From: Nitrosopumilus ureiphilus | GTDB taxonomy: Archaea > Thermoproteota > Nitrososphaeria > Nitrososphaerales > Nitrosopumilaceae | NCBI RefSeq assembly: GCF_013407185.1 | Contig: NZ_CP026995.1 | Location: 2,086,954-2,150,953, forward strand | Length of the DNA: 64,000 nt | Direction: 5' to 3' | Part shown: positions 28,869-28,961 of the stretch, piece by piece | How the letters are laid out: each line of letters starts with the position of its first letter | How positions within the stretch are numbered: the first letter of the stretch is position 1 | Position numbers and translations under genes: made by a program | The notes under the pieces: generated by a model | Database searches by the model: none | Seen by the model: only the letters and a program-made list of their open reading frames with translations | What the model was told of the DNA's origin: nothing

Positions 28869-28961
28869 GGGCTTGTAGCGCAGAGTCATTTTGACGCGCA
28901 ACATGGATAGCGCAGTAGCCTCCTAAGTTACAGGTCGAGGGATCGAAGCCCTCCAAGCCCG
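28869..28961 (+). tRNA. tRNA-Arg (CCT) with an 18-base intron in the D-loop
   Basis: The 93-base gene folds to a normal 75-base tRNA once 18 bases are removed from the D-loop. Acceptor GGGCTTG/CAAGCCC, D-stem GCGC/GCGC, anticodon stem GTAGC/GTTAC with loop CTCCTAA (anticodon CCT, U33 present), T-stem GAGGG/CCCTC, discriminator G, no CCA. The predicted intron is 28884-28901. The T-loop reads ATCGAAG, so position 54 is A instead of U. It lies between bluB and the flavin reductase gene. Confidence 0.9.
28884..28901 (+). other. tRNA intron at a non-canonical D-loop site
   Basis: GCGC of the D-stem 5' side (28878-28881) pairs with GCGC at the intron 3' end (28896-28899). Three-base bulges AGA (28882-28884) and AAC (28900-28902) flank this four-pair helix, and an inner GTCA/TGAC hairpin with a TTT loop closes it. 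Cutting after the second base of each bulge removes 18 bases and leaves D-loop AGCATGGATA, the standard form. The outer helix of the motif is weak, so this is a relaxed bulge-helix-bulge. Confidence 0.8.

Follow-up and report, generated by a model that had tools for sequence, protein, structure and literature searches.

A conserved relaxed bulge-helix-bulge intron in the D-loop of a single tRNA-Arg(CCT) gene of Nitrosopumilus ureiphilus

The window, meaning the whole 64,000-nucleotide stretch of DNA analysed here, from an ammonia-oxidising archaeon, carries a gene for tRNA-Arg(CCT) on the forward strand at positions 28869-28961. Its 5' exon (28869-28883), delimited from the sequence and from intronless orthologues, contains the acceptor strand GGGCTTG, the dinucleotide TA, the D-stem 5' strand GCGC (28878-28881) and A14 G15. 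The 18-nt sequence AGTCATTTTGACGCGCAA (28884-28901) interrupts the gene at position 15/16. The 3' exon (28902-28961) contains the remainder of the D-loop, the D-stem 3' strand GCGC (28910-28913), the anticodon arm with CCT (28922-28924), which reads AGG, the T-arm, the acceptor strand and G73 (28961); CCA is not encoded. A first-pass annotation had described this gene as a tRNA-Arg(CCT) with an 18-base D-loop intron, and all of its coordinates were confirmed. ARAGORN missed the gene, and the Rfam match begins only at 28891; in it the D-stem 3' strand finds its partner in the GCGC of the intron, which leaves the 5' exon outside. The true ends of the gene, where both programs are wrong, are now fixed. 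The T-loop (28942-28948) reads ATCGAAG, not the usual TTCGAAT. This form is kept across the tRNA-Arg(CCT) genes of the family, while those of more distant families carry TTCGAAT.

The gene is the only one of its kind found in the genome. A second tRNA-Arg(CCT) gene was sought with Rfam, an Arg(CCT) model and an anticodon-arm pattern, and none was found. AGG accounts for ~10% of the Arg codons in the window, and the genome contains two tRNA-Arg(TCT) genes that might read this codon if the CCT gene were a dead or unused copy. The absence of a second CCT gene argues against such disuse, as does a family-wide search of 200 genomes, of which 193, including all 119 of good quality (≥ 90% complete, ≤ 5% contamination), yielded a tRNA-Arg(CCT) homologue; the exons are nearly invariant across the family. 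A dead copy is therefore scarcely credible.

The intron is retained across most of this archaeal family, as established by comparing the gene among relatives. Pooling the family loci with those from model searches yields 48 distinct inserts, 16–22 nt long and all at one place, which follow the pattern A-GTC...GAC-GCGN-AR or a compensated variant of it. The proposed structure is a relaxed bulge-helix-bulge (BHB) in which the D-stem 5' strand pairs with GCGC at the 3' end of the intron (28896-28899). This central helix is flanked by the 5' bulge AG^A (28882-28884; the caret marks the cut, after the second base) and the 3' bulge AA^C (28900-28902; likewise cut after the second base), and encloses the inner hairpin GTCA-TTT-TGAC (28885-28895; GTCA at 28885-28888, loop at 28889-28891, TGAC at 28892-28895). 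At least three central and at least three inner pairs were found in register in 48/48 distinct introns, with an inner helix of 3–5 bp, as were both 3-nt bulges. Among 1000 composition-preserving shuffles, the mean number of introns in register was 0.04 and the maximum was 1. The AG of the 5' bulge is invariant in alignment A2 and its third base is A in 47 of 48 introns; the 3' bulge takes the forms AA^C, AG^T, AA^T, AG^C and AT^A among relatives.

The inner helix covaries. GTC/GAC is replaced by GCC/GGC, GTT/AAC or ATC/GAT, and longer forms such as ATCAA/TTGAT and GCCGC/GCGGC occur. In an alignment of 50 precursors, all four inner pairs show changes on both sides, and the covariation score of the helix was reached by no shuffle. 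The bulges AGA and AAC and the GTCA/TGAC hairpin, as originally described, are thus borne out by the homologues. Central pairs 2–4, present in all relatives, are invariant in the same alignment because the exon strand is the tRNA D-stem; since the central helix hardly varies, covariation cannot support it. Of the 50 relatives, 21 form the outermost (fourth) central pair, as G-C or G-U, and the other 29 leave it unpaired, so the GCGCA direct repeat at the intron ends is a trait of some lineages and not of the intron class.

The motif in a single sequence was rejected as proof of a BHB. About 210–270 places per strand of the AT-rich window form an in-register 4+4-bp motif with a loop of 3–8 nt; the shape is common by chance, which makes any one sequence weak evidence. 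It is conservation across homologues, not the single-sequence motif, that makes the case for the intron.

Thermodynamic folding was likewise rejected as proof, since rival folds lie close together. At 37 °C, ViennaRNA gave −31.0 kcal/mol for the BHB fold of the precursor, −29.1 kcal/mol for the D-stem with the intron hairpin, and −31.5 kcal/mol for a pseudo-D-stem, formed by the intron GCGC and 28910-28913, with the hairpin. The minimum free energy structure contains the true D-stem while the centroid contains the BHB. The thermodynamic competitiveness of the pseudo-D-stem, and the alignment of the gene by Rfam with this same pairing, would be compatible with the 18 nt not being removed at all, leaving either a 28-nt D-loop or a pseudo-D-stem closing the loop AACATGGATA. 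Most relatives, however, have GCGA at this place, which weakens the pseudo-D-stem, and its D-loop would be without G15. Covariation of the inner helix and the exact absence of the insert from intronless orthologues also speak against retention, which we regard as very unlikely.

A covariance model of the spliced tRNA recovered orthologues without the intron, which belong to other genera, families and orders. Their D-loops, AG-Y-N-TGGAYA, equal the predicted spliced products and read CAG-CATGGATA, CAG-TATGGATA, CAG-CTTGGATA or CAG-CCTGGATA, with GGACA variants. These readings were taken without any D-loop constraint, and among the orthologues so read CAACATGG occurred 0 times. In three intronless loci (L171-L173) the tRNA is letter for letter identical to the exons of the intron-bearing locus L055. 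By sequence, the intronless D-loops match the product predicted when both bulges are cut behind their second base, so that the junction and restored D-loop first proposed agree with naturally empty sites. The accompanying argument, that the GCGCA repeat leaves several equivalent junctions among which the bulge rule chooses, did not hold. All cuts equivalent by the repeat give the D-loop AACATGGATA, with A15 in place of G15. The BHB cut falls one base beyond the repeat, and its product is AGCATGGATA. The spliced junction predicted from the BHB cut is accordingly GCGCAGCATGG, not GCGCAACATGG. This cut keeps G15 opposite C48 (28936), a combination known as the Levitt pair.

The genome encodes the enzymes that such an intron would call for. 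Two proteins match PF01974 (L200 and L201), and both match tRNA-intron lyase models. L200, of 178 amino acids, has the Tyr, His and Lys that a catalytic subunit should retain (motifs AVYEKG, DHAPFL and TVRKQ), and as the EndA alpha subunit it is best matched by the crenarchaeal heterotetramer-type chains 2cv8 and 3p1z. Its loop GYYGKPIGIPKPK, with K-P-K, aligns at the place of the Crenarchaea-specific loop; by the offset of the 3p1z match, K35-P36-K37 would be the counterpart of K44-P45-R46 in the Aeropyrum enzyme (PMC12397907). L201, the EndA beta paralogue, is without the K-P-K loop and without the histidine, as a structural beta subunit would be. The two subunit types suggest an alpha2beta2 assembly. 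Two RtcB genes are also present.

The gene, its homologous introns, their covarying inner helix, the exact empty sites and both enzyme subunits with RtcB were observed directly. The best explanation, to which we assign a probability of about 95%, is a single tRNA-Arg(CCT) gene interrupted at 15/16 by a short non-canonical archaeal intron of the relaxed BHB (HBh') type, excised as proposed. In the transcript, the GCGC at the 3' end of the intron would pair with the D-stem 5' strand, and the small intron hairpin would stack on this central helix, so that two bulges of 3 nt remain. Each bulge would be cut behind its second base by a splicing endonuclease of the alpha2beta2 type, and RtcB would ligate the exons, after which the freed D-stem strand could pair with 28910-28913 to give the D-loop with its G15-C48 pair. 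We infer transcription, cleavage and ligation of this precursor. Against this explanation stand a folding analysis that does not clearly favour the BHB, the absence of an outer helix, and the missing fourth central pair of most relatives.

Non-canonical tRNA introns of thaumarchaea are a recognised class for which tRNAscan-SE 2.0 has a dedicated model, and 107 examples are reported in Thaumarchaeota (PMC8450103). The present intron resembles those examples in being short, in lying outside 37/38, in its BHB secondary structure and in its phylum, and it differs from them in nothing of kind. The main text of PMC8450103 does not list this gene or the position of its intron, which may be catalogued already. 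An archaeal tRNA-sequencing preprint mentions neither thaumarchaea nor introns. Introns in the D-arm have been described, as have enzymes that act on relaxed motifs (PMC3293823; PMC12397907). HBh' sites of archaeal pre-tRNAs (Marck and Grosjean, as reviewed in PMC4090602) share with this intron a central helix, 3-nt bulges and only one flanking helix. Here the intron lies outside 37/38, with its 15/16 borders taken from intronless orthologues; a 4-bp central helix (GCGC/GCGC in the window) joins the 5' exon to the 3' end of the intron; two 3-nt bulges, AGA and AAC, lie on opposite strands; the covarying 3–5-bp inner helix is the one flanking helix; and RtcB accompanies an EndA with two subunit types, from which its alpha2beta2 form is predicted. 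It differs from HBh' sites in that, among relatives, the central helix often consists of 3 bp and a G.A mismatch. A full canonical BHB (hBHBh') has helices on both outer sides, and here 28876-28877 (TA) and 28903-28904 (AT) cannot pair in the needed order. The intron is real and well conserved, and an ordinary example of a described type, which archaeal tRNA-splicing enzymes are known to excise.

The first-pass annotation had gone further, holding that the precursor cannot form a D-arm until it is spliced and that this switch-like geometry is striking. The folding results do not support the first statement: rival folds lie within ~2 kcal/mol, the minimum free energy structure contains the D-stem, and a D-arm in the precursor is not forbidden in these models. 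The precursor would be better viewed as a mixture of folds, of which the endonuclease presumably picks out the BHB. The second statement is overstated. In every BHB intron the central helix joins the 5' exon to the intron, and canonical ones tie up anticodon bases (PMC4090602). The tRNA-Val(CAC) gene of the same genome (L103 101-195; G000:C1:1527253-1527347) has a 20-nt non-canonical intron at 44/45, with a TGCG/CGCA central helix, bulges TA^A and AA^G, and an inner GGAA/TTCC helix. It is alike in its exon stem strand paired with the intron, its 3-nt bulges, its inner hairpin and its length of ~20 nt, and ties up the anticodon stem where the tRNA-Arg(CCT) intron ties up the D-stem. Because the pairing is inherent in every BHB central helix and is repeated in tRNA-Val(CAC), and with the fourth central pair absent from 29 of 50 relatives, the geometry does not mark a special switch.

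A regulatory switch that deliberately delays D-arm folding, for example to order splicing relative to G15 modification, could draw on the placement of the D-stem strand in the central helix and of the cut directly after G15. Such a role is very improbable given that the exon-intron pairing is common to all BHB introns, that several lineages retain the tRNA without the intron, and that the 48 distinct introns contain no conserved element beyond the needs of splicing. A related proposal is that the tRNA matures in an order dictated by the intron. Since G15 lies in the 5' bulge and the D-stem strand is tied up, steps that need the D-arm, G15 modification for instance, might in intron-bearing lineages be confined to the time before splicing or to the time after it. 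We consider this very unlikely; if true, these steps would differ in lineages that lack the intron.

Two further tRNA-like genes of the genome contain insertions. A tRNA-Glu(TTC)-like gene on the minus strand (L115; G000:C1:334510-334569) has a T-loop insert of ~14 nt that is probably another non-canonical intron. A tRNA-Trp(CCA)-like gene (L114; G000:C1:1877431-1877678) has a long intron 3' of the anticodon with box C/D-like motifs, which are also held by other archaeal tRNA-Trp introns.

The distribution of the tRNA-Arg(CCT) intron was followed in a named genome collection, where, among the matches listed, it is present in the Nitrosopumilus, Nitrosarchaeum, Nitrosotenuis and Nitrosotalea records and absent from 6 of 7 Nitrosopelagicus records and from Nitrosocaldus; the search pattern required GCGCAG, and these records are no renewed test of the junction. 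The intronless loci L122, L169, L170 and L175-L185 are flanked by nitroreductase-like and FMN-reductase-like genes, as is the gene in the window, with similar spacing; the intron-bearing loci L021 and L188, of the same genus as these intronless loci, have these neighbours too. That genus also has the tRNA in a second gene neighbourhood, again in both versions and with near-identical exons: L186, L187 and L189 carry the intron, and L171-L174 lack it. Mapped on a tree of neighbour proteins, which has much missing data and gives no direction of change, intron presence and absence requires 7 changes, and well-supported branches force 5 of these. The lack of the intron in the outgroups suggests a single gain within the family and several exact losses afterwards. 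This repeated presence and absence at one locus is the most useful aspect of the finding. It offers a clean natural experiment: among closely related marine archaea, in some cases with identical exons, one tRNA locus occurs in versions that have the D-loop intron and in versions that lack it. Such cases are of use for work on the loss of introns of this kind and on any function that they may have.
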